Below are positions 9,823-27,232 of a stretch of 32,672 bases of DNA, one piece after another. The translations under genes and the position numbers were made by a program. The notes under the pieces are model-generated. The model did not search any database. It was given only the letters and a program-made list of their open reading frames with translations, and was not told the DNA's origin. The number at the start of each line of letters is the position of its first letter. The stretch's first letter is position 1. Source of the stretch: Ignavibacteriales bacterium (GTDB taxonomy: Bacteria > Bacteroidota > Ignavibacteria > Ignavibacteriales > Ignavibacteriaceae); assembly GCA_014727845.1 (NCBI GenBank), contig WJMR01000214.1, forward strand, positions 1 through 32,672, in the 5' to 3' direction.

Positions 9823-11073
9823 CTAACCCTTCAGCCCCGTCGTCGCGACGCCGCCCATAATGTATCGTTGGAAGATCACGAAGAGGATCGCCACGGGCAG
9901 CATGCTCAACGTCGCGCCCGTCATCAAAAGGTGGCGGTTATCAACATAGGGCGAGCGGAAGTACTCCAAGCCGAGCGGAACGGTGCGGAGCTCGGGGGAG
10001 TCGAGATAGATCAGCGGACCCATCACGTCCTGCCACGTTCCGACGAACGTGAACAGCCCGGCGACGATGAGCGCGGGAACGCAGTTCGGAAGCACGACGC
10101 TCCAATAGGTGCGGAGCACGCCGCACCCGTCTATCGCCGCCGACTCGTCCAGCTCGCGCGGCAAACCGAGCATATATTGCCGAAGGAGGAAGACGTTGAA
10201 CGCGCCCGCGGTGAAGTGCGGCACGATTAGCGGCAGAAACGTGTCCAACCAGCCGAGCGATTTATAAATGCCGAAGAGAGGGACGAGCGTCACCTGCGCC
10301 GGCACCATCAGCGTCGCCAGCACGAGCGTGAAGAGGAGCTCGCGACCCTTGAAGCGCAAACGCGCGAAGCCGTACGCCACCAACGACGCCGACAGTATCT
10401 CGCCGATCACCGCCAACGCCGCGACGAAAAAACTGTTCCACAAATAGCGCAGGAAGCCGATCGACTTCTCGCCGTAGCTCGCTTCGGGTCCCGCGAGCGT
10501 CTCCTCGTAGTTTTCCCACCGAGCGTGGAATACGCGCTTCGGCTCGTGCTCGACGTTCCGCAACATTTCGGGATTCCCGCCTCCCGCGCGCTCGACGAAG
10601 AGGAGCTCCTCGTATCGGTCGTCGGATTGCCGCGCCATTCGCGCTATAACGCGAACCTCCCGCTCGGACGCGAGCAGAACGTGGGTCGGCGCGTCTGCGA
10701 AGACGATGGAATCCGAGGGAGGCGGAACGCGGCGGACCGAATCGAACGCGCGCCACGAGACGAACTGCGTCGGCTCGGCGCCGTCGAGGCGGAGGAAGTA
10801 GCCGCCGTCGTCATCGCGGCTTCCCAACAGATCCTCCGAGGGGAGGAGGAGGAACGCCGTGTCGGACGCGGTCGCGAACGTTCTCCCGTCCGCCGAATAA
10901 GCGAGCCGCGAGGTCGCCGTCTTCGCGGGATAGAACTCCGGCGGGGTCGCCGAGATCGCCTCGCGCGACTTCACCGACGAGGAGAGCACCCAGTAGAAAG
11001 GAAACAGCAACGCGACGCCGACGGGAATCAGCGCGGCGTACGTCAGTATGTTGCGCGTCGTAGGCGTTCGCAC
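9823..11073 (-). CDS. Sugar ABC transporter permease (MalG/CUT1 type) with large extracytoplasmic insertion
   Basis: The product is 416 aa from a GTG at 11073, one base after the stop of the fusion gene upstream. The family is the MalG-like inner-membrane subunit of carbohydrate importers. TM1 is ~9-33; the remaining membrane segments lie between ~207 and the end (FVAALAVIGEILSASLVAYGF, LLFTLVLATLMVPAQVTLVPL, ALIVAGLFTFVGTW, MLPVAILFVIF). The EAA loop that contacts the ATPase is DESAAIDGCG-VLRTYWSVVLP near 305-330. MalG-type proteins normally have ~280 residues. Here about 135 extra residues (~51-185) lie between TM1 and TM2, on the periplasmic side, rich in beta-type sequence. No ATPase gene is nearby; CUT1 systems often share a distant one. 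Third gene of the GH38-transporter operon. Confidence 0.92.
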   Translation of the reverse strand: MRTPTTRNILTYAALIPVGVALLFPFYWVLSSSVKSREAISATPPEFYPAKTATSRLAYSADGRTFATASDTAFLLLPSEDLLGSRDDDGGYFLRLDGAEPTQFVSWRAFDSVRRVPPPSDSIVFADAPTHVLLASEREVRVIARMARQSDDRYEELLFVERAGGGNPEMLRNVEHEPKRVFHARWENYEETLAGPEASYGEKSIGFLRYLWNSFFVAALAVIGEILSASLVAYGFARLRFKGRELLFTLVLATLMVPAQVTLVPLFGIYKSLGWLDTFLPLIVPHFTAGAFNVFLLRQYMLGLPRELDESAAIDGCGVLRTYWSVVLPNCVPALIVAGLFTFVGTWQDVMGPLIYLDSPELRTVPLGLEYFRSPYVDNRHLLMTGATLSMLPVAILFVIFQRYIMGGVATTGLKG

Positions 11074-11074
11074 G

Positions 11075-13486
11075 TTACTCGTCGTAGTAGGTTAAGCGTT
11101 TGGAAAGTTTCATCTGCAACGAGGTGACGGCGAAAATGACGAGGAAGAGGATCATCGCGTAGCTGCACGCCCTCCCCATATGCAGTTTGTTGAACGCTTC
11201 GTCGTAGATGTTCACGGCGTAGAATCGGAGCGCGTCTCCCGGTTCGCCGATCGCCGAACTGCTCTGCGCGAAAAAGAGCGCGGGCGTGAACACCTGAAAC
11301 GCCATGATCGTCGTAATCACCAAAGTAAAGACGACGACCGGACCGAGTAGGGGAATCGTGACGAAGACGAATCGTCGCAGGAAGCCCGCCCCGTCTATCT
11401 CCGCCGCCTCGTAGAGTGATTGCGGAATCTGCTTCATTCCCGCGTAGTAGATGATCATCGAGTTGCCGATCCAGAAAAGGTTCATCAACACCACGGCGTA
11501 GAAGGCGTGCGCCTCGTCCAACCAATTAACCGCCTCGAAGCCGAGCGTCGTCAGGAAGTGGTTGATCACCCCGTAGTCTTTGTTGAACATATTGATCCAC
11601 ACGATCGCCGCGGCGGCGCCCGTGAAGAGCGAGGGGAAGTAGAAGACCGCCTTAAAGAAGTTCGACCCGCGAACCCCCGCCGTGAGCAAGGCGGCGGTGA
11701 AGAGTCCGCCGAACATCGCGATCGGCACGGCAAACGCGGCGTAACGGATTGTGCGCTCCAAACCGATCAGGAAGTTCTCGTCCTCCGCCAAACTCAAGTA
11801 GTGCGCCACGCCGATCCACCGCGGCGGCTCGATCAGGTTCCACTCGGTGAACGAGAGAACGACCGACGCGAGTATGGGTCCGACGAGGAACGCCGTGAAG
11901 CCGATCAGCCACGGCGAGATGACCGCGTAGCCCTTCGCTCCGCCGCCGCGACCGCCGCCGCGACCGCCGCCCGATTTCGCCTCCGTCTTGCGGTTCGAGC
12001 GCACGTAGCGGAAGTAGAGCCATCCGAGAAGTCCGAAGAAAAACAGTAGCGCCGCGGGAAAGACGTACTTCACCGTCGCGTCGGGGTCGATCGGTTTGCC
12101 CCGCTCGAACGCCTCGTCGAAGTCGGCTTGGAGTTCGGGGATTCGCTCGCGGATCTTCGCCTCGATAAACTCGTTCATATGCGCGACGAAGCGCTCGTAC
12201 GCTTCGGGCGGAATCTCGCCGTTCACGCGCGGCAATTCGGCGAGGCGGTCGTTGTATTCCTTCTCCAACTCGCGCTCGACGCGCAGCCGCCATTTATCCA
12301 ACACGGGCACGAGGTAGTTGTTGTCGGTCACCATGTTCGGCGCGGCGATCGGGAGATCGTGGAGGAACGCCTCGACGTCCGCGGCGCCGTAGTCGTTGTT
12401 GACGAGCGCGTCGGAGGCGGCTTTGAGCGAGGGAACGCCCCGCAGGCGCCTACCGTAAATCCGTTGCGCCCCGAGCGAGGCGAGATGCTCGACGAAGAGC
12501 CACGCCTCCTCTTTGTGCGCGCTTCCGCTGAAGACGGCGACGGCGTTGACGTCCGCCAGTTGCGAGGGACGCGGTCCGCGCGGCATCGGCGTCAATCCGT
12601 AGCGGACGCCGCGCTCCTCCAAGTTACGCAGCGTCCACGGTCCGTCGATTCCCATCGCGAATTGGTCGTCGAAGAGAATCGAGCTCAAGTTCACGTTGCC
12701 GGATTGCAGCGGCGCGTCCCCGAGATGAACGCGATCGCCGTACTGGAGTCGAAAGACCTCGACCATCGCGGCGATCAACGAATCGTTCCCGACGACCGTC
12801 GCCTTCGTCGGATTGATCTGACGATCCAACACGTCGCCGCCGAACATCCGCCACATCGGTTCGTTCCAACTCAATCCGCCGACCATGCCGTATTGCGCGA
12901 AGGAGCCGTCGGGGTTGCGGTGCGTGAGGCGGGCGGCGAGCGCGGCGAACTCCCCCCACGTCAACGGCTCGTCCACGCGCGGGAATTCGGATTCGGGAAC
13001 GCCGCTCTGCTCGAGAACGTCCTTCTTATAGATGACGGCGCGGACGGCGACGTCCAGCGGAAAGGCGTAGAGCTTGTCGTCCCACGTGCACGCCTCGACC
13101 GCGATCCCGTGATAATCGTCGAGCGAGGTCTCGGAATTATCCACGAACTCGTCGAGCGGGGTCAGCGCGCCGCGCGCCGCCCACACGCCGATCACGCCGG
13201 AGTAGAGCGTGATGACGTCCGGCGCCAAACCCGATCCGGACTGCACTTGTAGCTTCGCCCAATACTGTCCCCACGGATAGACCGACACCTCGACGCGGAT
13301 GTGCGGATACCGCTCGACGAACTCGCGCGCGATGTCGCGAATATACTTCACCTCGCCCGCCTCGCCGTACATCGCGTATCGGAGCGTGACTTTCTCGCCT
13401 TGATACTCCTCGTTCTCGACGATCACGCCGGGGCGCGCGTCGAACGCGACGAGGAGAACGAGGGCGAGCGCGAGTCGCCGCGTCAT
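11075..13486 (-). CDS. Fusion of sugar-binding protein and ABC permease (MalE-like + MalF-like)
   Basis: The product is 803 aa. Start ATG at 13486 forms ATGA with the stop of the GH38 gene upstream, which indicates translational coupling; an in-frame codon at 13516 would overlap that gene more deeply and is less likely. Residues 1-~17 are a signal peptide or anchor. Residues ~30-465 are an extracellular solute-binding protein of family 1 (LRYAMYGEAGEVKYIRDIAREFVERYP start, WGQYWAKLQVQSGSGLAPDV hinge region, GIDGPW). Residues ~473-496 are a membrane segment followed by a basic, Gly-rich cytoplasmic linker (RSNRK, then three GGG blocks, ~497-520). Residues ~520-803 are a six-helix MalF-type permease with EAA loop QSLYEAAEIDGAG near 700. 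The topology is consistent: binding domain outside, linker inside. It permits one tethered binding domain per transporter. Confidence 0.93.
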   Translation of the reverse strand: MTRRLALALVLLVAFDARPGVIVENEEYQGEKVTLRYAMYGEAGEVKYIRDIAREFVERYPHIRVEVSVYPWGQYWAKLQVQSGSGLAPDVITLYSGVIGVWAARGALTPLDEFVDNSETSLDDYHGIAVEACTWDDKLYAFPLDVAVRAVIYKKDVLEQSGVPESEFPRVDEPLTWGEFAALAARLTHRNPDGSFAQYGMVGGLSWNEPMWRMFGGDVLDRQINPTKATVVGNDSLIAAMVEVFRLQYGDRVHLGDAPLQSGNVNLSSILFDDQFAMGIDGPWTLRNLEERGVRYGLTPMPRGPRPSQLADVNAVAVFSGSAHKEEAWLFVEHLASLGAQRIYGRRLRGVPSLKAASDALVNNDYGAADVEAFLHDLPIAAPNMVTDNNYLVPVLDKWRLRVERELEKEYNDRLAELPRVNGEIPPEAYERFVAHMNEFIEAKIRERIPELQADFDEAFERGKPIDPDATVKYVFPAALLFFFGLLGWLYFRYVRSNRKTEAKSGGGRGGGRGGGAKGYAVISPWLIGFTAFLVGPILASVVLSFTEWNLIEPPRWIGVAHYLSLAEDENFLIGLERTIRYAAFAVPIAMFGGLFTAALLTAGVRGSNFFKAVFYFPSLFTGAAAAIVWINMFNKDYGVINHFLTTLGFEAVNWLDEAHAFYAVVLMNLFWIGNSMIIYYAGMKQIPQSLYEAAEIDGAGFLRRFVFVTIPLLGPVVVFTLVITTIMAFQVFTPALFFAQSSSAIGEPGDALRFYAVNIYDEAFNKLHMGRACSYAMILFLVIFAVTSLQMKLSKRLTYYDE
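11940..11971. repeat. 12-bp tandem repeat coding the Gly-Arg linker
   Basis: CCGCCGCCGCGA is repeated at 11940-11951 and 11952-11963, with a partial third copy to 11971. It encodes the GGGR repeats joining the anchored binding domain to the permease. Replication slippage could change linker length. Confidence 0.85.
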
Positions 13487-16400
13487 ACGGGTTTGAAGTC
13501 GTGGCGCTTTTTCCAAGCGAAAGATGCTCGTTTAATCTTGAATGTTTTAATCTCGTAAGGATCGAAGCGCGCGACGAACGCGTTATTGTCGATCGGCGTC
13601 GGGTCCTCGGTTGTCGGACGCTCGAGCATATCCGTCGCGCGTAAATTTTCGACGTCGAAGCCGAGCGTAATCGTCGCGTCGGTTTTCTCGCCGCTCGTCT
13701 CGTAGGCGCGGAGGATAAGGTCGTCGTCGTCCTCGGCTTTCTTGAGAGTCGAGAAGGCGACGTTGGGATTGTCGATGGAAACGAAGGAGCGGCTTATCGG
13801 GAGGTCGCCCGCTTTCTTGAATACCGAGATCGCTCGGAGCCCTCGGTTAAACGCCTCGCCGAATTGTCTCGCCACGTTCGCGGTTCGGCTCGGCTTGACG
13901 GCGAAACGGAAGCGATGAACGCCGCGGTCGGGTTCGGGGTCGGGGTCGTAGGAGGCGCGGAGCAACGAGAGACGAACCGTCGCGCCGTTCGCGTCGCAAC
14001 CGTACTTCGCGTCGTTCGCGACGGTCAACCCTCGCTCGTCGTCGGCGACGCGCGTCCATCGTTGGGTGGGATATTCGGCGCCGTTCGGATCCCGAGCGAC
14101 GTCGCCAAAGGGAACCTCGCAACGCGCCAATATCTTGTCGGGCGCGAGCGACGAGGGGAACGCCGCTTTGAGAAACTTACCGCCTCGGTTCCGGTCGCCC
14201 GTTTCGTTCCACTCGACGACGACGCGACTCTCGAGATAGTCCGCGTCCTTGATGAGAGAAACGCGCTGGATAAGGCGAGATCCCTCCCACTCGTGGACGA
14301 TCTCGACCGTCGCGCGAACGGGACCCCGCTCGACAATCGCGACGCGCGTCGGGGAGGCGAGCGTCGTCGTCTCGGCGATCTCGCCGATCTCCCACGCCGA
14401 CATCTCGACGGGCTTCTCGGAGAGGAGTTGAAAGCCGTTGAATCCCGCGCCGCCGACGTAGTCAAATCCGTCGCGCTTATCGACGAACGAAGAGACCGCG
14501 CCCGTCGTCGCGTCGATCGCGACGGAGAGACGCTCGTTTTCCAAGCGGAGGTCGTCGTCGATCAAATTTGCGCCCGCGTTGTCGGACTTACGTGAACGCC
14601 GCCACTGATAAGCGCGATAGCCGATAGATGGAACGTTCTCCGCGACAAACGCGACCGTCGCCGCGCCTACATTCCGAGAAACGATTTGGCTCGGAACGAC
14701 GGCGCCCGTCTCGTCGAGGATCTCTACGCCCTCCTCCCCCGCGAGGGGAAGCGACGTCTCGACGAGATCCGTCCGCGCGGCGCTTGCGGGATTAAAAACG
14801 ACGAGCGGCGTCTCGGCGAAACCCGAACAGTCGATTTGCTCGGCGATCGCCTCGAATGATTTTTCCGTCGCCGAGCGAGCGCCCGTTATCGCCGCCTCGG
14901 CGGCGGGAACGGCTTCCTCGTACACGGCGTGAATGGCGGAGCCGGGGAGGATGTCGTGAAATTGATTGAAGCAGACGCGCTCCCATCCGCGCTTCAGAAC
15001 TTGGCGCGGGTAGGGGAGCTCGTACGGTTCGGCGATCGCGCAAAACGTCTCCGCCGCGACGAGCGCGTTCTCACCCTCGCGGTTGACGCGCTTGATATCC
15101 GCGTGCGTCGTGTAGCATCCCTCGAATATGAACTGTAACTCGTCGTCCACGACGGGGAGCTCGGGGCGTTTGGCTTCGACGGTTCTGAAATACTCTTCGA
15201 CGGTCGAGAAGCGGGCGGAGACGGCGAACGGGTCGTCGATCAACTCCAAGCCGCGGTTAATGTCTCGGATCGTCGGACCGCCGCCGTGATCGCCGACGCC
15301 GTAGCAGTGGAGGTAGTCCTTCAGCCCTTGGCGCTCGTCGAGTTCGAGGGGACGGTAACGCGTTTCGGGTCCCATCGTTCCGTTGTAATCGGGCGTCGCC
15401 GCGGCGATCACCTCCGAGCCGTCGGGGCCGCGCCACCGAACGACGCTCGGGTTTTCCTTCGCGCAACGCATATGGTAGTAGTACTTCACGCCGCATTGTC
15501 GGAGGATTTGCGGCATCGTGCGGACGTGCCCGAAGAGATCGGGTTGCCAGCAGACTTCCGGTTCGACGCCGAAGTGGCGCTTGACGAACCGATTGGCGAG
15601 GAGAAACTGCCGCGCGAGCGACTCGCCCGAGGCCATGTTCTCGTCCCCCTCCACCCACATCGAGGCGGAGACTTCCCACTGTCCCGCCGCGACGAACTTC
15701 TTCACGCGCTCGAACAACTCCGGGTCGCGCTTACGGATGACGTCGTATATCGCCGCCTGGCTCTGCGAGAACTTGAAGAACGGAAAACGCTCCATCAGCG
15801 AGACGATGGTGCGCGCGTCGCGGAGGATCACCTCCTCGGTTTCCGCCCACACCCAAAGCCAATTCATATCGATGTGCGCGTGACCGATTAGGTGCGTGGT
15901 GTAATCCTTGGCGCGGACGAGCAGGGGCGCGAGGATCTCTTGCGCGCGCCTGACGCTCGCATGGTAACGCTTGTCGTCGTTGTCGCGGAATGCGTCGAAG
16001 TCGAGCGCGGCGATCGCCTCGTCGATCAAGGGCGCCAAGCGGTCGCGTTCGTCGGCGAGCGTCTCCACGAGGCGTTGAGCGAATTGTACGTCGGGAGAAA
16101 TTCTCGGCGGATCGACGGCGCGAAGGAGCGCGGCGCGGTATTCCTCTTGGCGGATCGGCTCGACGACGTTCTTCGAGAACCCCATTTGCAACGCCTCCTC
16201 CCGGCGCTCCGGTTCGCCCGACTCGTAGAAGGACGCGACGACCTCTCCGTTCCGCGTAATCACCAATCGCTTGAAGCACGCGACGTACACGCCCGCGAGC
16301 GGCGCGACGATCGCGATCTCGACGCTCGAAAGTTTCTCGCCGGCGAGGGAGCTTAGATCCATCCGACGGTGAAACCACGACCCCGCCGCGTCGAGGAGGT

Positions 16401-16653
16401 AGGCGTACGGTTTCGACGTCTGCCAGTATTGATCGACGATGTTCAAGTCTCGTAGCGCGCGTCCCGAAGCGAACGTAATGTCCGCGCCCGCTTGAATGCG
16501 CGGCGAAGCGACGTCGATGAAAATCTCATACTCGAAGACGTCGCCTTCTTGGAGGACGTAATCGGATTTCGCTATCGTGATGTAACTGTAGCCGCGCGGG
16601 TTGCCGTCGGATTCGCTTTTAAAGAACAGAACGTCGGGGGAGTCGTGCGTCAT
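13483..16653 (-). CDS. Alpha-mannosidase, glycoside hydrolase family 38
   Basis: The product is 1056 aa from the ATG at 16653; the frame extends to a TTG at 16707, but that start is weak. The enzyme removes alpha-linked mannose using zinc and a retaining mechanism. Zinc ligands are H260 and D262 in GHAHIDMNWLW, the nucleophile is D372 in CWQPDLFGH, and the distal His is H566 in FNQFHDILPGS; GDHGGGPT (454-461) is also typical. The N-terminal ~145 residues look like a beta-sandwich, carbohydrate-binding-like module before the usual helical pre-domain. The C-terminal ~600-1056 is the beta-sandwich region of the family. No signal peptide is present, so it is cytoplasmic. It is the first gene of an operon: its stop overlaps the start of the transporter fusion by 4 bases. 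Divergent from the GH130 gene. Confidence 0.95.
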   Translation of the reverse strand: MTHDSPDVLFFKSESDGNPRGYSYITIAKSDYVLQEGDVFEYEIFIDVASPRIQAGADITFASGRALRDLNIVDQYWQTSKPYAYLLDAAGSWFHRRMDLSSLAGEKLSSVEIAIVAPLAGVYVACFKRLVITRNGEVVASFYESGEPERREEALQMGFSKNVVEPIRQEEYRAALLRAVDPPRISPDVQFAQRLVETLADERDRLAPLIDEAIAALDFDAFRDNDDKRYHASVRRAQEILAPLLVRAKDYTTHLIGHAHIDMNWLWVWAETEEVILRDARTIVSLMERFPFFKFSQSQAAIYDVIRKRDPELFERVKKFVAAGQWEVSASMWVEGDENMASGESLARQFLLANRFVKRHFGVEPEVCWQPDLFGHVRTMPQILRQCGVKYYYHMRCAKENPSVVRWRGPDGSEVIAAATPDYNGTMGPETRYRPLELDERQGLKDYLHCYGVGDHGGGPTIRDINRGLELIDDPFAVSARFSTVEEYFRTVEAKRPELPVVDDELQFIFEGCYTTHADIKRVNREGENALVAAETFCAIAEPYELPYPRQVLKRGWERVCFNQFHDILPGSAIHAVYEEAVPAAEAAITGARSATEKSFEAIAEQIDCSGFAETPLVVFNPASAARTDLVETSLPLAGEEGVEILDETGAVVPSQIVSRNVGAATVAFVAENVPSIGYRAYQWRRSRKSDNAGANLIDDDLRLENERLSVAIDATTGAVSSFVDKRDGFDYVGGAGFNGFQLLSEKPVEMSAWEIGEIAETTTLASPTRVAIVERGPVRATVEIVHEWEGSRLIQRVSLIKDADYLESRVVVEWNETGDRNRGGKFLKAAFPSSLAPDKILARCEVPFGDVARDPNGAEYPTQRWTRVADDERGLTVANDAKYGCDANGATVRLSLLRASYDPDPEPDRGVHRFRFAVKPSRTANVARQFGEAFNRGLRAISVFKKAGDLPISRSFVSIDNPNVAFSTLKKAEDDDDLILRAYETSGEKTDATITLGFDVENLRATDMLERPTTEDPTPIDNNAFVARFDPYEIKTFKIKRASFAWKKRHDFKPV

Positions 16654-16690
16654 AACGTGGATTTCGTCTTGTCGGGTTACCGGATTATTG

Positions 16691-16704
16691 CGTAAGTTAA
16701 CCGG
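16691..16704 (-). promoter_or_regulatory. Shared promoter-region motif, copy 1 (GH38 operon)
   Basis: On the minus strand CCGGTTAACTTACG lies 37 bases before the ATG at 16653. It matches 12 of 14 positions with CGGGTTAACTAACG upstream of the second GH38 gene, in the same orientation to its gene. It may be an operator or an extended -10 region; a TTTTTCT box precedes it at 16722-16716. Confidence 0.4.
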
Positions 16705-16771
16705 CAACGTTATTCAGAAAAACGGTAAGGTTCAAGGGCGAACCGATATTCTCCATCAAGGACGCACGACG

Positions 16772-17692
16772 ATGACAAGCGAACTCCTGCGCCGACACGG
16801 GCGCAATCCCATCTTGACGAGCGACGACCTCCCGTTCCTCTGCAACGCGATTTACAATCCCGGCGCTACGAAATTCGGCGACGAGTATATACTTCTTGCG
16901 CGCGTCGAGGACGGACGACGCGACAACAAGCTGCATGTTTGCCGCTCCCGAGACGGCGTCGATTTCACGGTCGAGCCGACGCCGATCGCGATTACCAACC
17001 CGATCGACGACGGAATGCCCGAGAAGCATCTCTACGATCCGCGGATCACCCTTCTGGAGAATTCCTACTATATAACATACTGCTCGCAGGGCTTCGACGA
17101 GACCGTCCGCATCGGGTTGCTTAAGACGGACGACTTCGCCACGTTCGAGCGCGTCGCCTACATCGCCGAACCGTGGAACCGCAACTGCGCGATCTTCCCC
17201 GAAAAAATCGGCGGCGGATACGCGCGCTTCGACCGACCGATGAGCGGCGACGACGTGATCAACGTCGTCTCCTACTCGCCCGATCTCGTGCATTGGGGCG
17301 AGTCGAAGGCGATCGAGTTGGAACCCGTCACGTGGTTCCGGCAGAAGTGGGGCGTCGGTCCGACGCCGATCAAAACGGACGCGGGCTGGCTGACGATCTT
17401 CCACGGCGTTTGGCTCGCGGTTAACTATGTGTATCGCCTCGGCGTCGTGTTGTTGGATTTGGAGGACCCGTCGAAAGTCGTCGGGCAGTCTCCCGAGTTC
17501 ATCCTCACGCCGCGCGAGCCGTACGAGCGGACGGGAGAGACGATCAATTGCGTCTTCTCGAATGGCGCGATCGTTGAACCGAACGGCGAGGTGAAAGTGT
17601 ACTACGGCGCGGCGGATTCCTGTATCGGTCTCGCGACGACGACGATCGACGAACTCGTGGAGGCGTGTCTCAGAAACGGGAGAGCGAGATGA
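16772..17692 (+). CDS. Glycoside phosphorylase family GH130 (beta-mannoside phosphorylase)
   Basis: The product is 306 aa from the ATG at 16772 (AAGGA nine bases upstream); the open frame further upstream runs across the divergent promoter and is not used. The five-bladed propeller family is recognised by NPGATKFGDEYILLARVEDGRR (as two adjoining blocks at 29-50), the catalytic Asp in HLYDPRIT (D89), the phosphate-site motif NRNCAIFPEKIGGGYARF and DRP (~160-185), and GWLTIFHGV. GH130 enzymes cleave Man-beta-1,4-Man, Man-beta-1,4-Glc or Man-beta-1,4-GlcNAc with phosphate, giving alpha-mannose-1-phosphate. Which acceptor is used cannot be read from the sequence. No signal peptide, so cytoplasmic. 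It overlaps the next gene by ATGA (4 bases). Context with two alpha-mannosidases favours a mannoside or N-glycan-core substrate. Confidence 0.92.
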   Translation: MTSELLRRHGRNPILTSDDLPFLCNAIYNPGATKFGDEYILLARVEDGRRDNKLHVCRSRDGVDFTVEPTPIAITNPIDDGMPEKHLYDPRITLLENSYYITYCSQGFDETVRIGLLKTDDFATFERVAYIAEPWNRNCAIFPEKIGGGYARFDRPMSGDDVINVVSYSPDLVHWGESKAIELEPVTWFRQKWGVGPTPIKTDAGWLTIFHGVWLAVNYVYRLGVVLLDLEDPSKVVGQSPEFILTPREPYERTGETINCVFSNGAIVEPNGEVKVYYGAADSCIGLATTTIDELVEACLRNGRAR

Positions 17693-18888
17693 GCGAGGAG
17701 AAGGGCGGGCGCGTCGCGTCCATCGACGTCTTCCGCGGCTTGACGATTTTCGTGATGGTCTTCGTCAACGAGCTGGCGCGCCACGAGGGAATACCCGCGT
17801 GGATGAAGCACGCCCCGTCCGAGCAAGACTGGATGTCGTTCGTGGACGTCGTCTTTCCCGCGTTCCTCTTCATCGTCGGAATGTCCATCCCGCTCGCGCT
17901 TGGCAAGCGGATGGAGCGGGGCGCGAGCGCCGCCGACCTGTGGTCGCACATCCTACTCCGCACGGGCGCGCTCCTCATACTCGGCGTGTTTATGGTGAAC
18001 ATGCACGGCTTCCGCGAGGACGCCATGCCGCTGAGCGGCGATTGGTGGACCTTCCTCGTCTTCGTCGCCGTGATGTTCGCGTGGAACGTCTATCCGAAAA
18101 CGCTCGACTCGAAACTCGCGAACGGCTTAAAGATTTTCGGAGCGATCGTGTTGATCGTCTTGGCGATTCTCTACCGAGGCGACGAGGAGGGGAGCGTTCG
18201 TTGGATGCGCACGTATTGGTGGGGGATCCTCGGCTTAATCGGATGGGCGTATCTAACCGCGAGCGCGACGTACCTCGCGTTCCGTAACCGGCTCCCCGCG
18301 CTTCTCGGCGCGCAGGCGCTCCTCACGCTCCTCTTTATCGGCGATCAACAAGGCGCGCTGGATTTCTTCGGCGTCGTGCGCGACTATGTGTGGCTCGGCG
18401 GGCAGATCGGCACGCATTCCTCGATGGTCGTCGCGGGCGTCGTCGTCTCGACGCTCTTCCTTAAGGACGCGCCGACGAAAACGCCGAAGGAGCGGATCGT
18501 ATGGGCGCTCGCCTACGCCGCCTTTCTCTTCGTCGCGGGCTACTTGTTGGCGGACGCGTTCGGAATCTCGAAGACTCGCGCCACACCCGGATGGGCGCTC
18601 TACTCGCTTTCGATTTGCGCGGCGCTCTTTGCGTTCTTCTATTGGCTCGTCGATCTTCGGGATAAGGAGGGATGGTTCGCGTTCCTCCGACCCGCGGGCG
18701 TCAATCCGCTACTCGCGTACATTCTTCCATACACGCTCTACGCCCTTTTCGGAGCGTTGGGCGTTGCCGCATGGTTGGATCAATTTCATCAAGGCGTTCC
18801 CGCGATTCTTTGGTCGATCGTCTTCTCGTTCGCCATACTTGGCGCAACGGCCGCGCTTACAAAGTGGGGCGTGCGACTTAAGCTTTAG
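17689..18888 (+). CDS. DUF5009/NagX-like multi-pass membrane protein
   Basis: The product is 399 aa from the ATG at 17689, which overlaps the GH130 stop as ATGA and has GGGAGAG upstream. The N-terminus RVASIDVFRGLTIFVMVFVN is the hallmark of the COG4299/DUF5009 family, related to heparan-alpha-glucosaminide N-acetyltransferase and to NagX of N-acetylglucosamine clusters. About ten membrane helices can be seen, including FPAFLFIVGMSIPLAL, TGALLILGVFMVNMHGF and the C-terminal pair. A conserved His-containing loop (NMHGF, ~110) fits the acyltransferase family. It is likely an inner-membrane protein that transports or acylates an amino sugar. Its presence beside GH130 and GH38 suggests the substrate contains GlcNAc, an inference. 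Confidence 0.85.
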   Translation: MSEEKGGRVASIDVFRGLTIFVMVFVNELARHEGIPAWMKHAPSEQDWMSFVDVVFPAFLFIVGMSIPLALGKRMERGASAADLWSHILLRTGALLILGVFMVNMHGFREDAMPLSGDWWTFLVFVAVMFAWNVYPKTLDSKLANGLKIFGAIVLIVLAILYRGDEEGSVRWMRTYWWGILGLIGWAYLTASATYLAFRNRLPALLGAQALLTLLFIGDQQGALDFFGVVRDYVWLGGQIGTHSSMVVAGVVVSTLFLKDAPTKTPKERIVWALAYAAFLFVAGYLLADAFGISKTRATPGWALYSLSICAALFAFFYWLVDLRDKEGWFAFLRPAGVNPLLAYILPYTLYALFGALGVAAWLDQFHQGVPAILWSIVFSFAILGATAALTKWGVRLKL

Positions 18889-18947: not shown

Positions 18948-21674
18948 ATGCCGAATAACGCATCCAAACCGTTTCGCGCGCACTACATTTCGGGAACCCA
19001 CTGGGATCGCGAGTGGTATCGCCCGTTCCAAGAATTCCGCCTTCTCCTCGTCGAGGTGATGGACGACCTCCTCGATCTTCTCGACCGCGACCCCGAGTTC
19101 GCGCACTTTCATCTCGACGGACAAACGTGCGTTCTTAAAGACTACCTTGAAATCCGACCCGAGGAAGAGCCGCGATTGAAGCGGCACGTCGCCGACGGAC
19201 GCATCCTCATCGGTCCGTGGCACACGATGCCCGATCTTTTCGCGACGGGGCAGGAGGCGCTCGTTCGCAATCTCCTCTTCGGGAAAATGATTTGCGAGGA
19301 GTGGGGCGTCGAACCGATGGCGGTCGGTTACGTCTGCGATATGTTTGGCCATACCTCGCAGGCGCCGCAACTCTTCCGCCGCTTCGGAATAACCCGCGCG
19401 GTGATGGGGCGGGGCGCGAACGAACACACGACCCCGATGTATTTCACGTGGCGCGCGCCGAACGGGGACGAGACGTTTACGTTCAAGTTGCAGGATCGAT
19501 ACGGCTACGCCGCCTTCGCGCAGGCGCGACACATCCTCGAGGCGCCCGACGCCGAGGAGGATTCGACCGCCGAGGAACGAGCGACCAAGACGATGGAGGA
19601 CTATGCGAGGCACGAAACGAGTCGGGCGAACGGTTCGACGATCGCGCTCTTCGACTCGATGGATCATATGCCCCCCGCATCGAATCCGAAGCGTTATCTC
19701 GATCTTCTGCGCGGCGCCTATCCGGAACTCGACACGACGCACTCCTCATTGCCCGCCTTCTTCGACGAAGCCGAGCGAACGGCGATCAATCTTCCGACGC
19801 GCGTCGGCGAACTACGAGAACCCGCGAAAGGGACGTATCCTTACTTGTGGCTTATCCCGAACTGCGGCTCCTCGCGCGTCCGACTGAAGCAAGCGAACGA
19901 TCGATGCGAGCGTCTCCTCGCGAGCGAGGCGGAACCCTTCGCGGCGTTCGCGCGCGCGCTCGGCGACAAGACGCCGCGACGACTCTTCCGAACCGCGTGG
20001 GAGTACACGCTTCTCAATCACGCGCACGACAGTGTGTGCGGATGCTCGATAGACCAAACGCATCGGGATATGAGCTATCGCTACGATCAGGCGGAGATCC
20101 TCGCGAAGCAGTTGCGCAATCGCGCCGTCGGTTTCCTCGCCGCGACTCGCAAAGACCCCTCGGAAGGGGAGCGAGAATTCGCGGTCGTCCTCTCGAATCC
20201 CTTGCCGCGAGCGCGTAAGGAGACGGTCGTCTTTCCCGTCGATCTTCCGCCCGATTACCCGACGCAATTCACCGAAGGGTTCCCGGGTTCGCAGAACGTC
20301 AAGTCCTTCACGCTTCACACGATCGAGGGGGAGGAGATTCCCTACCTGCGCTTGTCGATCGATCCACGTCATCAAGAGCGGACGCGCTACGCCTTAACCA
20401 CAACCGAGGGGGGCGACGGCGTCGTCTCGCGTTATATGGTCGCCGCCGAGATCGACCTGCCCGCGTTGGGGTTCGTCGCCGTGCGCGCGCGTCAGAGCGA
20501 CTCGCCCGTCCGATACGCCGGATCGTTGCGCACGGGACCCGCCTCCGCCGAGAACGACCGCGTCGCGCTCGCGATCAATCCAAACGGGACGTTGCGCCTG
20601 CTCGACAAGGCGACGGGGGAGACGTACGACGACTTATTGATTTACGAGGACGATAGCGAGATCGGCAGCGGATGGTTCCACTCCTTCACCGTGAACGACG
20701 AGACGGTCTCGACCGCCGCGGGCGACGCCCGGCTCTCCGTGATCGACGACGGTCCCGAGCTCGTACGCTTTGCGATTCGAAGGACCCTCTCGCTTCCGAA
20801 ACGCTACGATTGGCGCGGCGAACGGCGAACCGACGAGCGCGTCGAGACGAATATCACGGACTTCGTGACGTTGACGAAAACGGCGAGCTACGTCGAGATC
20901 GAGACGGTCGTCGAGAACGTCGCGGAGGATCACCGTTTGCGCGCGCTTTTCCCGACCGACGTCGAGGCGGATACCTACCTCGCCCACACGGCGTTCGACG
21001 TCGTCGAGCGACCGATCGCGAGGGACCGCGAGACGTTTAAGTGGCAAGAGTACGAGCTTGTTCAAAAACCGTTTCTTGGATTTATGGCGATTGGCGGGGG
21101 CGAACGGGGGTTGGCGTTCGTCTCGGGCGGCGGCTTCCGCGAGGGGGGCGTCCGCGAGGACGAGCGGCGCACGATGGAAACGACGCTGTTGCGCTCCTTC
21201 CGACGGACGGTGGGAACGCCCGGGGAGCGCGACGGACTCGAGCTTGGCGAGATTCGGTACCGATACGCGATTATGCCGTTCGCGGGCGAGCGGGCGAGGC
21301 AACGGGCGTTGGAGGCGCACGATATCCTCTCGACGGAAATCGTCGCCTCGCAAACGGGAACGATCCGTTCGGGATTTCCGCCGCTTGCGGGCGAGGAGCC
21401 GGCGCGGGCGAGTTTCCTACGGTTGGAGTCGGGCGCGCTCTCGCTCGCGGCGATAAAGACGAGCGAAGACGGCGAGGCGATCGTGGCGCGGATGTGGAAT
21501 CCGACCGAAGAGGCGCAAACCGAAAGGCTACGTTTTTACGCGGAGGTGAAAGAGGCGCGTTACGTCGATCTCGCGGAACGCCCGTCGGATAAGGGCGTGC
21601 CGAGAATCGACGGCGCCGTCGTCGAGATCGCGGCGGACGGTAAGGAGATTGTAACGGTTCGCGTCGAGTTGTGA
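18948..21674 (+). CDS. Alpha-mannosidase, glycoside hydrolase family 38 (MngB-like branch)
   Basis: The product is 908 aa from the ATG at 18948. Zinc ligands H18 and D20 are in SGTHWDREWY at the very N-terminus, the nucleophile D131 is in VCDMFGH, and the distal His H360 is in LLNHAHDSVCGCSID. This N-terminal start and the motif spellings resemble the E. coli MngB/2-O-mannosylglycerate-hydrolase branch rather than the first GH38 in this window, so the two are not recent duplicates. Cytoplasmic (no signal peptide). No ribosome site is evident before the ATG. It likely cleaves a different alpha-mannosidic linkage from its partner. Its stop TGA and the stop of the convergent WG-repeat gene form the palindrome TGACGCGTCA (21672-21681). 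Confidence 0.94.
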   Translation: MPNNASKPFRAHYISGTHWDREWYRPFQEFRLLLVEVMDDLLDLLDRDPEFAHFHLDGQTCVLKDYLEIRPEEEPRLKRHVADGRILIGPWHTMPDLFATGQEALVRNLLFGKMICEEWGVEPMAVGYVCDMFGHTSQAPQLFRRFGITRAVMGRGANEHTTPMYFTWRAPNGDETFTFKLQDRYGYAAFAQARHILEAPDAEEDSTAEERATKTMEDYARHETSRANGSTIALFDSMDHMPPASNPKRYLDLLRGAYPELDTTHSSLPAFFDEAERTAINLPTRVGELREPAKGTYPYLWLIPNCGSSRVRLKQANDRCERLLASEAEPFAAFARALGDKTPRRLFRTAWEYTLLNHAHDSVCGCSIDQTHRDMSYRYDQAEILAKQLRNRAVGFLAATRKDPSEGEREFAVVLSNPLPRARKETVVFPVDLPPDYPTQFTEGFPGSQNVKSFTLHTIEGEEIPYLRLSIDPRHQERTRYALTTTEGGDGVVSRYMVAAEIDLPALGFVAVRARQSDSPVRYAGSLRTGPASAENDRVALAINPNGTLRLLDKATGETYDDLLIYEDDSEIGSGWFHSFTVNDETVSTAAGDARLSVIDDGPELVRFAIRRTLSLPKRYDWRGERRTDERVETNITDFVTLTKTASYVEIETVVENVAEDHRLRALFPTDVEADTYLAHTAFDVVERPIARDRETFKWQEYELVQKPFLGFMAIGGGERGLAFVSGGGFREGGVREDERRTMETTLLRSFRRTVGTPGERDGLELGEIRYRYAIMPFAGERARQRALEAHDILSTEIVASQTGTIRSGFPPLAGEEPARASFLRLESGALSLAAIKTSEDGEAIVARMWNPTEEAQTERLRFYAEVKEARYVDLAERPSDKGVPRIDGAVVEIAADGKEIVTVRVEL

Positions 21675-21678
21675 CGCG

Positions 21679-22743
21679 TCACTCCTCGATGTAGAGCGTT
21701 CCGTCTTTGCCGAGATAACCCCACAAACCGTCGTAGTTGACGTACGCCAATCCTCGGTAAAATCCTTCGGCGTGTTTGAAGTCGTTGTCGAAAATCATTT
21801 CGCCCGTCGGTTTGAGAAAGCCGAACTCTTTGCCGTCCTTCACCAAGCCGCGCTCGTCTTGGAACGGGTAGGCGAACTCGTACTCCGGCTCGACGACGAA
21901 CTCGGCGTAGCCGTTAATGTATCCCCACTCGAAGGTTTCGACGGACATTGCGGGCGCGAGTCCGCCGTTAAACGAACCGACTTCGAGGAATTGAAAATCG
22001 ATCACCATCTCGCCCGCGCGGTTGACGAATCCCCACATCCCGTCCTTCATCACCGCGGCGACGCCCTGGCTGAACGGCGACGCATCCTCGAATTGGAACT
22101 CGATCGCGAGGAACCCCTCGTCGGATAGGTAGCCCCAGCGCTCGTTCTGTTTCACGGGCGCCAATCCGGAACTGAAGTGACCGAAATCCTCGTACTCGAA
22201 GGGAATAACCGGATTGCCGTCTCGGTCGATAAATCCGCAGAGACCGTTGTGGCGCACGCCCGCCAAGCCCTCGTGGAAGTCGCCCGCGTCTTCATACATC
22301 GCGGGAACGACCATCTCGCCTTTGTCGTCCACGAATCCGACGAGAGATTTTTTCTCCACTCTGCCTCGTCCCTCGATGAATCGTTGCGCGAAGTCGAACT
22401 CGAACGGCGTGAGTAGCTCGCCTTTATTCGAGAGATAGGCGTTCTGGTGGTAGCGACGCACGATGGCGACGCCTTCATAGAAATTCTCGACCTCGTCGAA
22501 GCTCGGCTCGACGACCATGCTGTCGGCTTCGTTGATGTAGCCCCAAAGGTCGCCGACGCGAACCGCCGCCAATCCTTCGTTGAAGGGTTTCGCTTCGTCG
22601 TATTTATGCGCGATGACGAGTTCTTTGTCGGGCGCGGTGAATCCCCACTTTCCCTCGTAGTTGAACGGTATCAGGTGCGGCGTTTGCGCGGAGGTCGTCG
22701 CGACGAGCGTCGCGATTACGAGAAGTGCGCGTAGCGTTTTCAT
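21679..22743 (-). CDS. Secreted WG-repeat protein
   Basis: The product is 354 aa from the ATG at 22743 (GGAG five bases before). A signal peptide (residues 1-19, ending TTSAQ) is followed by about nine WG repeats of ~35 residues: KWGFTAPDKELVIAHKYDEA, LWGYINEADSMVVEPSFDEV, LCGFIDRDGNPVIPFEYEDF, RWGYLSDEGFLAIEFQFEDA, MWGFVNRAGEMVIDFQFLEV and so on, ending LWGYLGKDGTLYIEE. WG repeats (PF14903) form beta-propeller or beta-rich scaffolds found in many secreted bacterial proteins; no enzymatic role is known. One unit (residues ~90-115, around AYLSNKGELLTPFEF) lacks the WG pair. Single gene, transcribed convergently with the GH38 gene. Confidence 0.92.
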   Translation of the reverse strand: MKTLRALLVIATLVATTSAQTPHLIPFNYEGKWGFTAPDKELVIAHKYDEAKPFNEGLAAVRVGDLWGYINEADSMVVEPSFDEVENFYEGVAIVRRYHQNAYLSNKGELLTPFEFDFAQRFIEGRGRVEKKSLVGFVDDKGEMVVPAMYEDAGDFHEGLAGVRHNGLCGFIDRDGNPVIPFEYEDFGHFSSGLAPVKQNERWGYLSDEGFLAIEFQFEDASPFSQGVAAVMKDGMWGFVNRAGEMVIDFQFLEVGSFNGGLAPAMSVETFEWGYINGYAEFVVEPEYEFAYPFQDERGLVKDGKEFGFLKPTGEMIFDNDFKHAEGFYRGLAYVNYDGLWGYLGKDGTLYIEE

Positions 22744-22889: not shown

Positions 22890-23357
22890 ATGCGACGAAA
22901 ACTACGACTCGGGCTCATCGCCCACGATAATAAGAAGCGCGACTTGCTTGAGTGGGTCTATTTCAACCGCGACGCGCTGACGCGCCATCGGCTAATCGCG
23001 ACGGGTACGACCGGAACGGTCGTCGAAAAAATGCTCGGCGTGGAGGTGGAAAAGGTGCGATCCGGACCGCTCGGCGGCGATCAAGAGATCGGGGCGATGT
23101 TGGTCAACGACAAGATCGACGCGCTCTTTTTTTTCTGGGACGGCCTCGACGCCCACCCGCACGACCCCGACGTGAAGGCGTTGTTGCGGCTTAGCGTGGT
23201 GTGGAACGTCCCGACCGCATGCAATCGCTCGACCGCCGATATGATCATCTCGAGTCCGCTCTTCGAGGGGAAGTACGAACGCACGCCGCCCGACCTCGCG
23301 GAGTACTCGCGAAATCGTCCGCTGGATATTTCTTTCGACACGGGCGAGGACGGCTAA
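22890..23357 (+). CDS. mgsA: Methylglyoxal synthase
   Basis: The product is 155 aa, the normal length. The enzyme converts dihydroxyacetone phosphate to methylglyoxal and phosphate in the cytoplasm, a bypass that relieves build-up of sugar phosphates. Family motifs are all present: LIAHDNKK (9-16), TGTTG (39-43), SGPLGGDQEIGA with the catalytic Asp (D64), and PHDPDVKALLRL with the active-site His (H91), then NRSTADMIISSP. One small difference from E. coli is WDGL in place of WDPL before the His motif. GGGAG lies 7 bases before the ATG. The stop codon interlocks with the stop of the convergent kinase gene (4 bases shared). It could limit phosphate trapping when mannoside use is fast, but the link to the cluster is only proximity. 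Confidence 0.97.
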   Translation: MRRKLRLGLIAHDNKKRDLLEWVYFNRDALTRHRLIATGTTGTVVEKMLGVEVEKVRSGPLGGDQEIGAMLVNDKIDALFFFWDGLDAHPHDPDVKALLRLSVVWNVPTACNRSTADMIISSPLFEGKYERTPPDLAEYSRNRPLDISFDTGEDG

Positions 23358-26300
23358 CCCGCTCCGTTCGCCGCGTCGCGGATGCGTTCGACGAGCGCCT
23401 CGAATTCGTCGAGCCGCGCGCCCATCTTCTCGACGTCGAAACTCTCGACATGAAAGCGCAAGTCGTCGGCGTATTCCTTCAGCGCCGCGAGCTCGGTTTC
23501 CTTGGCGACGCCGTCGAGCCGATCGCAGAAATCGGCGACGTCCCGCAAAAAGTGGTTCTTCGCCGCCTTCTCGTGCAGCGCGAACAACTCGTCGTCGAAT
23601 AGTTCGAGCGCGTCGTTCGCCGCCTTTGGGGGAATCTCCCTTCGCTCCGACGTCTCCGCCGCTTCTCGCGCATCCTCCGCCGCCTCGGTTTCCACGTACG
23701 ACAGATATTTCTTAAGCGTCCCGATGAGTCCTTCGAGTTGCACGGGTTTGACGAGGTAGTCGTCGAATCCCGATCCGAGTATCTTGTCTTCGTCGCCCTT
23801 CATTGCCGACGCGGTGACGGCGACGATCGGCGTTTGGTCAAGCTCCGGAATAGCGCGAATGCGGCGCGTCGCTTCGTAACCGTCCATCACGGGCATACGG
23901 ATGTCCATAAGAATCGCGTCGGGTTTGGACGCCTTCGCCGTCTCGATCGCTTCCGCGCCGTTCTCGGCGGTCACGGTTGTAACGGCGGTTGTCGCGAAGA
24001 ACTCGACGATAAGGTCGCGATTGGTTTTTATGTCGTCCACCACGAGCACGGTCGCCTCGTCGAACACGATCCGATCGAGCCGTTCCTCCGCCTTGACGAG
24101 CGCCGAGCGTTGAATCGACGCGGCCGCGACGTCGCGGAGGCGCATCAAGAACGCGCTACCGACGCCCGGCTCGCTCTCGACGGAAATATCGCCGCCCATC
24201 ATTTCCACCAGGCGCTTGGTGATCGCCAAGCCCAAGCCCGTGCCGCCGTACTTCCTCGCGCTTTGTCCTTCTTGCTGTTTGAAGGATTCGAATATTTCCT
24301 TTTGCGATTCCTTCGGAATGCCGACGCCCGTGTCCTCGACGGTGAAGAGGAGATCGACCTTGCTCCGATCCTCGGCTTTATACACGTTCTCGACGCGGAG
24401 CTTCACGCCGCCCTCGTCGGTGAACTTGACCGCGTTGCCGATAAGATTGAACAGCGCTTGGCGGAGGCGAACCTCGTCCAGCAGCAAGCCCTCGGGTAGT
24501 TCGGGATCGATCCGCACGTCGAACTCGAGATTCTTCTCGGCGATGCGCGCGGAAAAAATCTGTCGGACTTCCTCGATGAGCGCGCGCGGATCTACGGGTT
24601 CGTAGTTAAGCTCGAATTTCCCCGCCTCGATTTTCGAGAGGTCGAGGATGTCGTTGATGAGCGTGAGGAGATTCTTTCCCGCCGTTTTAATCGCGTCGAG
24701 TCGAGACTTCTGCTTCCGATCTTCGAGCGAGGCGTTGATCAAGTCGGTGAAGCCGAGGATGGCGTTCATCGGCGTGCGGATCTCGTGGCTCATGTTCGCG
24801 AGGAACTCCGACTTCAGTCGCGACGCCTCGAGCGCCTTTTCCTTCGCCGCGATGAGCGCGCGCTCGTTTTCCTTGAGCTGCGTGATGTCCCGCGCCGACG
24901 CGAGCGCCGTTTTCACGCGCTCCTCCTTCGAGAATTCGGGCGAGATGATAAGGTCGATCCACACCCCCTCGGTCGTTTGGAACTCGACGCGACGCTCCAC
25001 GCCGCGATCGAACACCTTCTCCAGCGCGCCGCTCCACACCTTCACAATGGAAGCGGCGAACCCGATCTCGGTCATCGTTTTGCCGACGAACTCGTCCGCG
25101 GGCACGTCCATAATCGCCTCGGAGGCGCGGTTGGCGTAGAGGATTTTGAAGTCGCGATCGAATCGCATAATCACGTCGTTCGAGTATTCCGCGAGCGCCT
25201 TGAATTTCTCCTCGCTGTCCCGCAACGACTCCTCGAACTGCTTCCGTTCCTCGATCTCTTTTTGCAGAAGCTCGACGGCTTGCGAGAGTTCGGACGTTCG
25301 TTCGGCGATGCCCCGCTCGAGCTCCTCGTTGACGCGCTTAAGCTTCTCCTCGAACTTCTTTCGATCCTCGATGTTGACGATGACGTTGAGGATCGCGGGT
25401 CTGCCGCCGTACGCGATAACCGCGCCGCGCACCTCGACGGGCAACAAGCTTCCGTCCTTCTTCACGATCTCGATCTCGAAACTCTTCACGTCCTCGCCCG
25501 CCAAGCGCCGCTCGATTTGCTCGACGACGCGCGGACGATCCTCCGGCTTGAGCATATCGAAGATGTCCCGCTCCGCCGCCTCGTTGGGAGTAAAGCCCGT
25601 GATCTCCTCGACGACCTGATTGGCGAAGACGACTTTCCCGCCTTGATGCACGATCACCATATCGGGTAGCTCGGCGACGAGACCCTTGTAGCGCTCCTCG
25701 CTTTCTTTGAGGACGCGCGCGGTGCGGCGCTCCTCGGTTACGTCCGCGCCGACGGAGACGACGTGCGTTATCCGACGGTGTTCGTCGTAGTAGGGGTAGA
25801 GGCGAAAGTGGACCGTCCGCTCCTCGTCGAAGCCGGGCAAGACGATGCCGAGTTCCAACGAAAGCTCGCCCCCCTCGAAGCACGCGTCGATGGAGGATTT
25901 CATCTCCTCGCGGAAGCGTTTCTCGGTGAACGCCCGCGAGAGTGTCGAGCCAAGGAGCTCCTCGCGTTCGCGGTCGAGCGCGCGACAGAACGACTCGTTG
26001 ACCGCCTCGAAGCGATACTCGCGATTGACGAGCGCCATAAACTCGCGAGAAGAGTTGACGATGAAGTCGTACTTCCTGCCGCTCTCCTCGAGCGCCTTCT
26101 GCTCGGTGATGTTTTCCTTAACGGTGACGTAGTGCGTTACGACGCCGCGCTCGTCGGTGATGGGCGAGATCGACGCGATCTCCCAATACTCGTTTCCTTC
26201 CTTGTCGCGGTTCAAGAACTCGCCTTTCCACTCGTCGCCCGCCGCCAGCGTTTTACCGAGACCGTTGAACGCCTCGGGGTCCTCCTTGGCGTTCGCGAGG

Positions 26301-27232
26301 AAGTCCGACTTCGTCCCGACAATCTCCTCCTCGCGAAACCCCGTCGCTTGGAGGTATTTCGGATTGACGTACTCGATAGTGAGATCGACGTTCGTCAGCA
26401 TAATGGATACGGGGGATTGGACGATGGCTTGCGTTAGCTTGCGGAGCTCGGCTTCGGCGCGTTCGCGGTCGGCGATCTCGGTTTTGAGCTGCGAGTTGAA
26501 ATCCTCGAGCGAGTTGTAGGCGAGCTCCAACGATTCGACCATCACGTTGAACGAGCGCGCCATCAACCCCACTTCGTCGCTTCTTTCGACGTCCACGCGT
26601 TTGGTGAGGTCGCCGTCGGCGATCTGCCCGAACGTTTTGGACATTTCGCGCATCGGGGCGGTGGTCGCGCGTCCGATGCCGATAGCCGCGAGGACGCCGA
26701 TGACCGAGAAGCCGAGGGCGATGAATATCATCGTCGTCTGGAAGTTCTCGATGTCGCGATAGACGCCCGCGAGCGAGAGTCCGAGATAGAGCGCGCCGAC
26801 GTCGCGATCGTCCACCGCGATGGCTTTGCGGATTTGGTAGATCTCCTCCTCCTCCAACTCGTGGCGCTCGTTCGCCGTTCGGAAACCGACCCGATCGGCG
26901 AGCGCTTGGTTGAACGCGTCCACGATCTCGCCGTCCGAATCCACGACGACGATGAAGGCGACGTCTTCGTTCTGGAGCGCCGTTTCAATCGCCTCTTGGA
27001 TTTGGTCGTGCAGTCCGAAGTCCAACGCGGCGCGCGCGGTGTAGGCGGTCATCGTCGCGATGCTCGCCGCCTTGTCGCGCGTCATATCGAGCGACCTGCT
27101 ATGCATCACGTCGGGCACGATGAAGTAGATGTTGAGCGAGACGAAGATCATCAGCGCGGCGATCGGGATGGCCATTTTCGCGGCGAGGGAGCCGACCCGG
27201 TGATGATAGAATGATTTGAGAGCGTCGAGCAT
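23354..27232 (-). CDS. Hybrid sensor histidine kinase (periplasmic sensor-HAMP-4xPAS-HisKA-HATPase-REC)
   Basis: The product is 1292 aa. TM1 is ~18-40; the periplasmic sensor ~41-165 resembles CHASE8-type domains of YfiN (RAALDFGLHDQIQEAIETAL, then VAFIVVVDSDGEIVDAF); TM2 is ~168-192; HAMP ~190-245. Four PAS domains follow (~262-380, 385-500, 512-630, 672-795) with a coiled coil at ~632-672. HisKA holds the phosphorylated H816 in FLANMSHEIRTPMNAIL; the HATPase has DTGVGIPKE and GGTGLGLAI. A receiver (~1058-1175) has D1110 in LMDIRMPVMDG and the Lys of DDYLVKPV. The last ~80 residues are a helical bundle that resembles the degenerate Hpt-like tail of related kinases but has no obvious phosphorylatable His. 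Its gene starts 6 bases after the YfiR-like gene, so both are in one operon. It autophosphorylates and passes phosphate to its receiver; the final target is unknown. Confidence 0.95.
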   Translation of the reverse strand: MLDALKSFYHHRVGSLAAKMAIPIAALMIFVSLNIYFIVPDVMHSRSLDMTRDKAASIATMTAYTARAALDFGLHDQIQEAIETALQNEDVAFIVVVDSDGEIVDAFNQALADRVGFRTANERHELEEEEIYQIRKAIAVDDRDVGALYLGLSLAGVYRDIENFQTTMIFIALGFSVIGVLAAIGIGRATTAPMREMSKTFGQIADGDLTKRVDVERSDEVGLMARSFNVMVESLELAYNSLEDFNSQLKTEIADRERAEAELRKLTQAIVQSPVSIMLTNVDLTIEYVNPKYLQATGFREEEIVGTKSDFLANAKEDPEAFNGLGKTLAAGDEWKGEFLNRDKEGNEYWEIASISPITDERGVVTHYVTVKENITEQKALEESGRKYDFIVNSSREFMALVNREYRFEAVNESFCRALDREREELLGSTLSRAFTEKRFREEMKSSIDACFEGGELSLELGIVLPGFDEERTVHFRLYPYYDEHRRITHVVSVGADVTEERRTARVLKESEERYKGLVAELPDMVIVHQGGKVVFANQVVEEITGFTPNEAAERDIFDMLKPEDRPRVVEQIERRLAGEDVKSFEIEIVKKDGSLLPVEVRGAVIAYGGRPAILNVIVNIEDRKKFEEKLKRVNEELERGIAERTSELSQAVELLQKEIEERKQFEESLRDSEEKFKALAEYSNDVIMRFDRDFKILYANRASEAIMDVPADEFVGKTMTEIGFAASIVKVWSGALEKVFDRGVERRVEFQTTEGVWIDLIISPEFSKEERVKTALASARDITQLKENERALIAAKEKALEASRLKSEFLANMSHEIRTPMNAILGFTDLINASLEDRKQKSRLDAIKTAGKNLLTLINDILDLSKIEAGKFELNYEPVDPRALIEEVRQIFSARIAEKNLEFDVRIDPELPEGLLLDEVRLRQALFNLIGNAVKFTDEGGVKLRVENVYKAEDRSKVDLLFTVEDTGVGIPKESQKEIFESFKQQEGQSARKYGGTGLGLAITKRLVEMMGGDISVESEPGVGSAFLMRLRDVAAASIQRSALVKAEERLDRIVFDEATVLVVDDIKTNRDLIVEFFATTAVTTVTAENGAEAIETAKASKPDAILMDIRMPVMDGYEATRRIRAIPELDQTPIVAVTASAMKGDEDKILGSGFDDYLVKPVQLEGLIGTLKKYLSYVETEAAEDAREAAETSERREIPPKAANDALELFDDELFALHEKAAKNHFLRDVADFCDRLDGVAKETELAALKEYADDLRFHVESFDVEKMGARLDEFEALVERIRDAANGAG

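Follow-up and report, generated by a model that had tools for sequence, protein, structure and literature searches.

A CUT1-type substrate-binding protein fused to a MalF-type permease in an Ignavibacteriales genome

In their 2002 review, van der Heide and Poolman reportedly confine fusions of a substrate-binding protein (SBP) to a permease to two non-sugar families. Covalent tethering of substrate-binding domains (SBDs) is established in GlnPQ and OpuA (excerpts of PMC8025302 and PMC11065425), the former with four binding domains per transporter (PMC8025302) and the latter with two (PMC11065425), and for TRAP transporters, cases in which binding protein P is fused to the small membrane domain Q are described as rare (PMC8276074, excerpt). 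For sugar importers of the CUT1 family, the CUT1 table in PMC3654945 lists permeases of 6-8 helices and names no fusion, and a literature search that covered few subscription papers turned up no account of an SBP-permease fusion in a CUT1 system.

Here, we analyse a window of 32,672 nucleotides, which is one whole contig (G000:C154) of a 3.4-Mb Ignavibacteriales draft genome (429 contigs, 98.6% complete) and which carries a gene, here called MalEF, for a binding protein and a MalF-type permease in a single chain. The GC content of the window (0.599) lies inside the 0.548-0.623 range of the 18 contigs read from 20 sampled. A search of the genome for 16S rRNA gave no match.

One gene for a binding protein and a permease

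A sequence-only reading of this DNA had placed a binding domain and a MalF-type permease in one 803-aa chain at 11075-13486. The coordinates are correct and the strand, which that reading did not give, is minus: from 13486 to 11075 there is a single open frame, and the plus strand of the same coordinates is interrupted by stops (Table 1). An alternative start, TTG at 13516, would give 813 aa. The reading had also proposed looking for both domains in one protein, and Pfam located SBP_bac_1 (1.8e-30), SBP_bac_8 (residues 52-359, 4.4e-29) and BPD_transp_1 (2.4e-11) in MalEF, all three matches exceeding the curated cut-offs; this search and the orthologues described below agree with the two-domain chain. 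Among solved structures, the closest by sequence to residues 29-375 are free sugar-binding proteins, and those closest to residues 519-797 are MalF/AlgM1/SugA-type permeases; the best NCBIfam resemblance of MalEF is to UgpA, far under the equivalog cut-off.

Table 1. Features of the fused gene and its neighbourhood, in window coordinates
Feature	Position	Strand	Basis or remark
MalEF, CUT1 substrate-binding protein joined to a MalF-type permease, 803 aa	11075..13486	-	open frame; Pfam; three full-length orthologues
Substrate-binding domain, SBP_bac_1 match, residues 48-341	12464..13345	-	Pfam
TM0, extra membrane helix joining both domains, residues 472-490	12017..12073	-	Kyte-Doolittle
Gly-Arg tract GGGRGGGRGGG in the TM0-TM1 loop, residues 506-516	11939..11971	-	without conservation in orthologues
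Permease domain, BPD_transp_1 match, residues 593-798; EAA-loop sequence EAAEIDGAGFLRRFVFVTIPLL	11093..11710	-	Pfam
MalG-type partner permease, 416 aa	9823..11073	-	begins 1 nt past the MalEF stop
Extra periplasmic stretch of ~140 aa in MalG, TM1-TM2, residues about 46-190	10504..10938	-	hydropathy, alignments
GH38 alpha-mannosidase, first operon gene	13483..16707	-	4-nt overlap (ATGA) of its stop with the MalEF start
GH130 (mannoside phosphorylase family), divergent	16601..17692	+	
Second GH38-family protein	18948..21674	+	

Kyte-Doolittle hydropathy finds a signal-like, hydrophobic N-terminal segment, then TM0 and then six further helices, which bears out the membrane helix between the domains and the six-helix permease of the earlier reading. 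Its basic Gly-Arg linker held up only in part, since the tract is present but is not a conserved element, the orthologues having a different TM0-TM1 loop that is three residues shorter. The only internal start codons near the junction are GTG at codons 472, 495 and 560, none of which has, by our reading, an evident ribosome-binding site. AlphaFold models of MalEF (alignment of the window protein with two Paenibacillus rows of locus L004, mean pLDDT 39.4) and of MalG (window protein with one Paenibacillus row of L004, mean pLDDT 31.9) were discarded.

Full-length, uninterrupted matches to MalEF occur in four of 395 genomes of the phylum, namely the window's own and three of another family (G052, G071 and G160), whose stop-free proteins are 43-45% identical to MalEF across residues 7-800 in an alignment that spans the junction. 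Among these three orthologues, the junction has a pN/pS of 0.067 and the other segments have values of 0.041-0.128, the highest belonging to the spacer; in seven proteins of group C (see below) the junction value is 0.40. Judged by these ratios, the junction is evolving as coding DNA under purifying selection, and on the comparison of sequences the MalEF fusion is real.

Fused proteins elsewhere in the phylum

We called a fusion from the DNA only, as the open-frame length reported by the searches is unreliable; eight loci with reported open frames of 724-789 aa had a stop between the domains in all cases but one (L034). Truly fused proteins number 16 among the 56 loci inspected at the DNA level, a ratio that is no prevalence, the loci having been picked by rank and suspected fusion, and Pfam confirms both domains in ten of them besides the window's. 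In the tree, these 16 proteins form three separate clades: group A, with MalEF and its three orthologues; group B, with L034 (from the window's own genome), L115, L117, L118 and L120; and group C, with seven proteins (L042-L047 and L124) that all come from the family to which the window genome belongs. The first tree, of all 56 rows, gave the same three groups as the second, which omits the long or short rows L130, L004 and L056. One clade for all 16 proteins is rejected (p-AU 2.8e-89), as is one clade for groups A and B (p-AU 0.0165, tested post hoc with the groups already seen). On this phylogenetic evidence two origins of the fusion are firm and three are likely, the third being only likely because of long branches in the tree. 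The earlier statement that fused binding domains are uncommon for sugar importers fits these findings; however, the fusion arose more than once in this phylum, and the window genome alone holds two separately fused systems.

Full-length, uninterrupted matches were found in 5 of 390 genomes for group B and likewise in 5 of 390 for group C, the latter all in family f1; two more group-C genomes are G006 and G014. In 33 further genomes the group-C query matched as two separate pieces, as a single piece interrupted by stops, or only partially. The large scans, those with MalEF and MalG included, scored two to four candidates per genome, so that their counts are lower bounds, and sampling was concentrated on this phylum, with other phyla barely covered. 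Group C is 50-61% identical to its two-gene relatives, which were found in other families. At L042, an alpha-amylase gene lies directly upstream of the fused gene. A search of viral contigs gave no match, and a scan of genome contigs with MalEF as the single query returned one locus, unfused, from Paenibacillus. Of 1508 plasmid records, 18 had a single place spanning at least 80% of the query; eight of these were checked and rejected as fusions, two (L132 and L133, read as DNA) having a stop that separates the SBP from the permease and six (H8-H13) being annotated as separate genes.

By simple hydropathy, TM0 is present between the SBP and the permease in all 16 fused proteins, and the loop that follows it carries a net charge of +2 to +7 in every one. 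The same method, with L130 excluded from the count, found no helix upstream of the matched region in any of 39 separate permeases and no C-terminal helix in the last 120 residues of any of 36 separate SBPs. The intergenic DNA of L125 and L126, two close relatives without the fusion, encodes no TM0-like helix in the frame read. The fusions are not simple stop losses, because each needed an added helix. The gained helix would place the SBP on the outer side of the membrane and the start of the permease on the inner side, solving this topology problem with a single helix gain.

Partners, probable substrate and probable mode of action

MalEF lies in an operon with the order GH38 mannosidase, MalEF, MalG, the mannosidase gene being translationally coupled to MalEF, and this operon is one which the GH130 gene and the second GH38 gene adjoin on the opposite strand. 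The neighbouring genes, taken alone, suggest a mannoside as the substrate, potentially an N-glycan-derived oligosaccharide, and from the same neighbours the MalEF importer probably takes up mannose-containing oligosaccharides. At the orthologue loci L111 and L112, the four genes scanned are without mannosidases. The mannoside cluster of the window also includes a DUF5009/HGSNAT-like acyltransferase (17665-18888, +), and L112 likewise has a DUF5009 protein (13263-14723) close to its fused orthologue. Elsewhere in the window are a 354-aa protein of nine WG repeats (21679-22743, -) and a hybrid histidine kinase of 1292 aa (23354-27232, -) that contains CHASE8-like, HAMP and several PAS domains. 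The kinase adjoins a YfiR-like/TonB-plug cluster and also a response regulator (30470-31924) that has a nucleotide cyclase domain.

The partner permease MalG (P0002) has a BPD_transp_1 match, and its best NCBIfam resemblance is to UgpE/MalG, far under the equivalog cut-offs. It aligned full-length in only four of 395 genomes, the same four that match MalEF in full, at 55-56% identity. The remaining rows of that search align from residue 183 or later and most of their frames are too short for the periplasmic insert; a few of these rows have longer frames (e.g. G165:C70, 401 aa; G264:C1, 503 aa). The MalG partners of groups B and C are without the insert. One further MalG, of 409 aa (L130, G409:C64), has an insert of similar size without a MalEF-type fusion; comparison of its insert with that of the window MalG gives an hhalign probability of 16.8%, and the best BLASTP hit (E 0.008) covers the flank. 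The L130 contig, which appears foreign to its bin (13% contamination), also codes for a MalF of 423 aa that has additional helices at its N-terminus. Reception of the tethered SBP may be assisted by the MalG insert, although the insert's association with the fusion may be chance, because one clade is one event.

The genome has a single OB_MalK match, in a 373-aa ORF outside the operon (G000:C429), and this MalK-type ATPase carries Walker A and LSGGQ. PF01547 and PF13416 each match at two genomic places, MalEF and a gene on G000:C332, both permease-fused, and a search with these two models found no separate SBP of the SBP_bac_1/SBP_bac_8 families in this draft assembly. BPD_transp_1 matches at five places, comprising two MalF, two MalG and one PstA-like protein that adjoins PstB- and PhoU-like genes (names by reading). 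The gene on C332 (L034:8014-10371) is the second, separately fused SBP-permease, and a MalG gene and a TonB-receptor-like gene adjoin it.

We consider it probable that MalEF belongs to a CUT1 (type I) sugar importer whose MalF subunit includes the binding protein in its own chain. The SBP domain would be positioned in the periplasm, TM0 would return the chain and leave the permease N-terminus in the cytoplasm, where an ordinary MalF has it, and the SBP would dock in cis onto MalEF-MalG. A shared MalK, encoded elsewhere and predicted to pair with MalEF-MalG, would power transport, and GH38, perhaps together with GH130, would cleave the imported mannose-containing oligosaccharide once it is in the cytoplasm. 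CUT1 permeases are heterodimers, and with the fusion to one half, and a separate MalG encoded beside MalEF, exactly one binding domain per transporter is therefore expected. From the architecture it is sound to infer, with the earlier reading, that the one-chain arrangement would fix the SBP stoichiometry. Neither the MalG insert nor the mannoside context had been noticed in that reading.

It is unlikely that the chain is made whole, is then cleaved after export into an SBP freed from the membrane and a permease that keeps one additional helix at its N-terminus, and so works like an ordinary CUT1 system. Residues about 380-470, the long stretch separating the SBP match from TM0, could be accessible to such cleavage; however, the entire stretch is kept in three relatives under purifying selection (spacer and junction ratios above), and from the C-terminal SBP helix TM0 is reached within about 10 residues in group C. 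We give very little credence to a sensor in which the tethered SBP and permease would report the presence of substrate and not import it, a reading with no specific support, as the EAA-loop sequence is intact in both MalEF and MalG, a MalG partner and a MalK-type ATPase are encoded, and catabolic enzymes adjoin. An assembly or sequencing error that fused two neighbouring genes might be entertained in a draft of 429 contigs where the window is one entire contig, where unfused relatives have adjoining SBP and permease genes, often in one frame, and where the junction contains a GC-rich Gly-Arg repeat, but such an artefact is very unlikely as the source of MalEF, and close to negligible, because three further genomes hold the same full-length, stop-free fusion, which largely refutes an error, and purifying selection acts on the junction in these relatives; moreover, the join is more than a lost stop, with a new helix and loop separating the domains.

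Comparison with known systems

By every feature tested, MalEF and its partners would form a CUT1 importer, distinguished by the fusion of the SBP to MalF, fusions being already known for non-sugar importers. Periplasmic binding proteins usually outnumber their transporters (PMC9045158, excerpt). A single binding domain in cis would bring a high local concentration at the cost of scavenging by many free copies, and the likely three origins in one phylum, together with unfused close relatives, offer a natural experiment on what is gained and lost by tethering. It is a tentative and rather unlikely proposal that tethering has been selected repeatedly in the phylum; it draws on three independent CUT1 fusions each gaining a helix, on one genome without a free sugar-family SBP, and on a MalG of the window clade that would have gained a periplasmic domain receiving the single SBP, as the P2 loop of E. 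coli MalF does.

The components found are those of a CUT1 system, with a binding protein of SBP_bac_1/SBP_bac_8 type, two different six-helix BPD_transp_1 permeases and an OB-domain MalK-type ATPase. The importer thus resembles E. coli MalEFGK2 and the UgpA/UgpE-type systems in its SBP_bac_1 domain, its MalF/UgpA-like and MalG/UgpE-like permeases and its MalK-type ATPase; however, SBP and MalF here form one chain with TM0, and the large periplasmic insert is in MalG, not in MalF. Groups B and C share with MalEF the architecture of SBP, TM0, positive loop and six-helix permease, although the clades are separate; they differ from the window clade in their insert-free MalG partners and, for group C, in a lipobox-like N-terminus that, by our reading, is kept across one family. 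TRAP fusions are alike in joining SBP and permease but are not ABC transporters. What GlnPQ and OpuA have in common with MalEF is the covalent link between a binding domain and the translocator (PMC8025302, excerpt). Those systems belong to other SBP and permease families, for amino acids and glycine betaine, while Pfam and NCBIfam place MalEF among sugar families, and their homodimeric fused permease brings two or four SBDs, where one is expected here.
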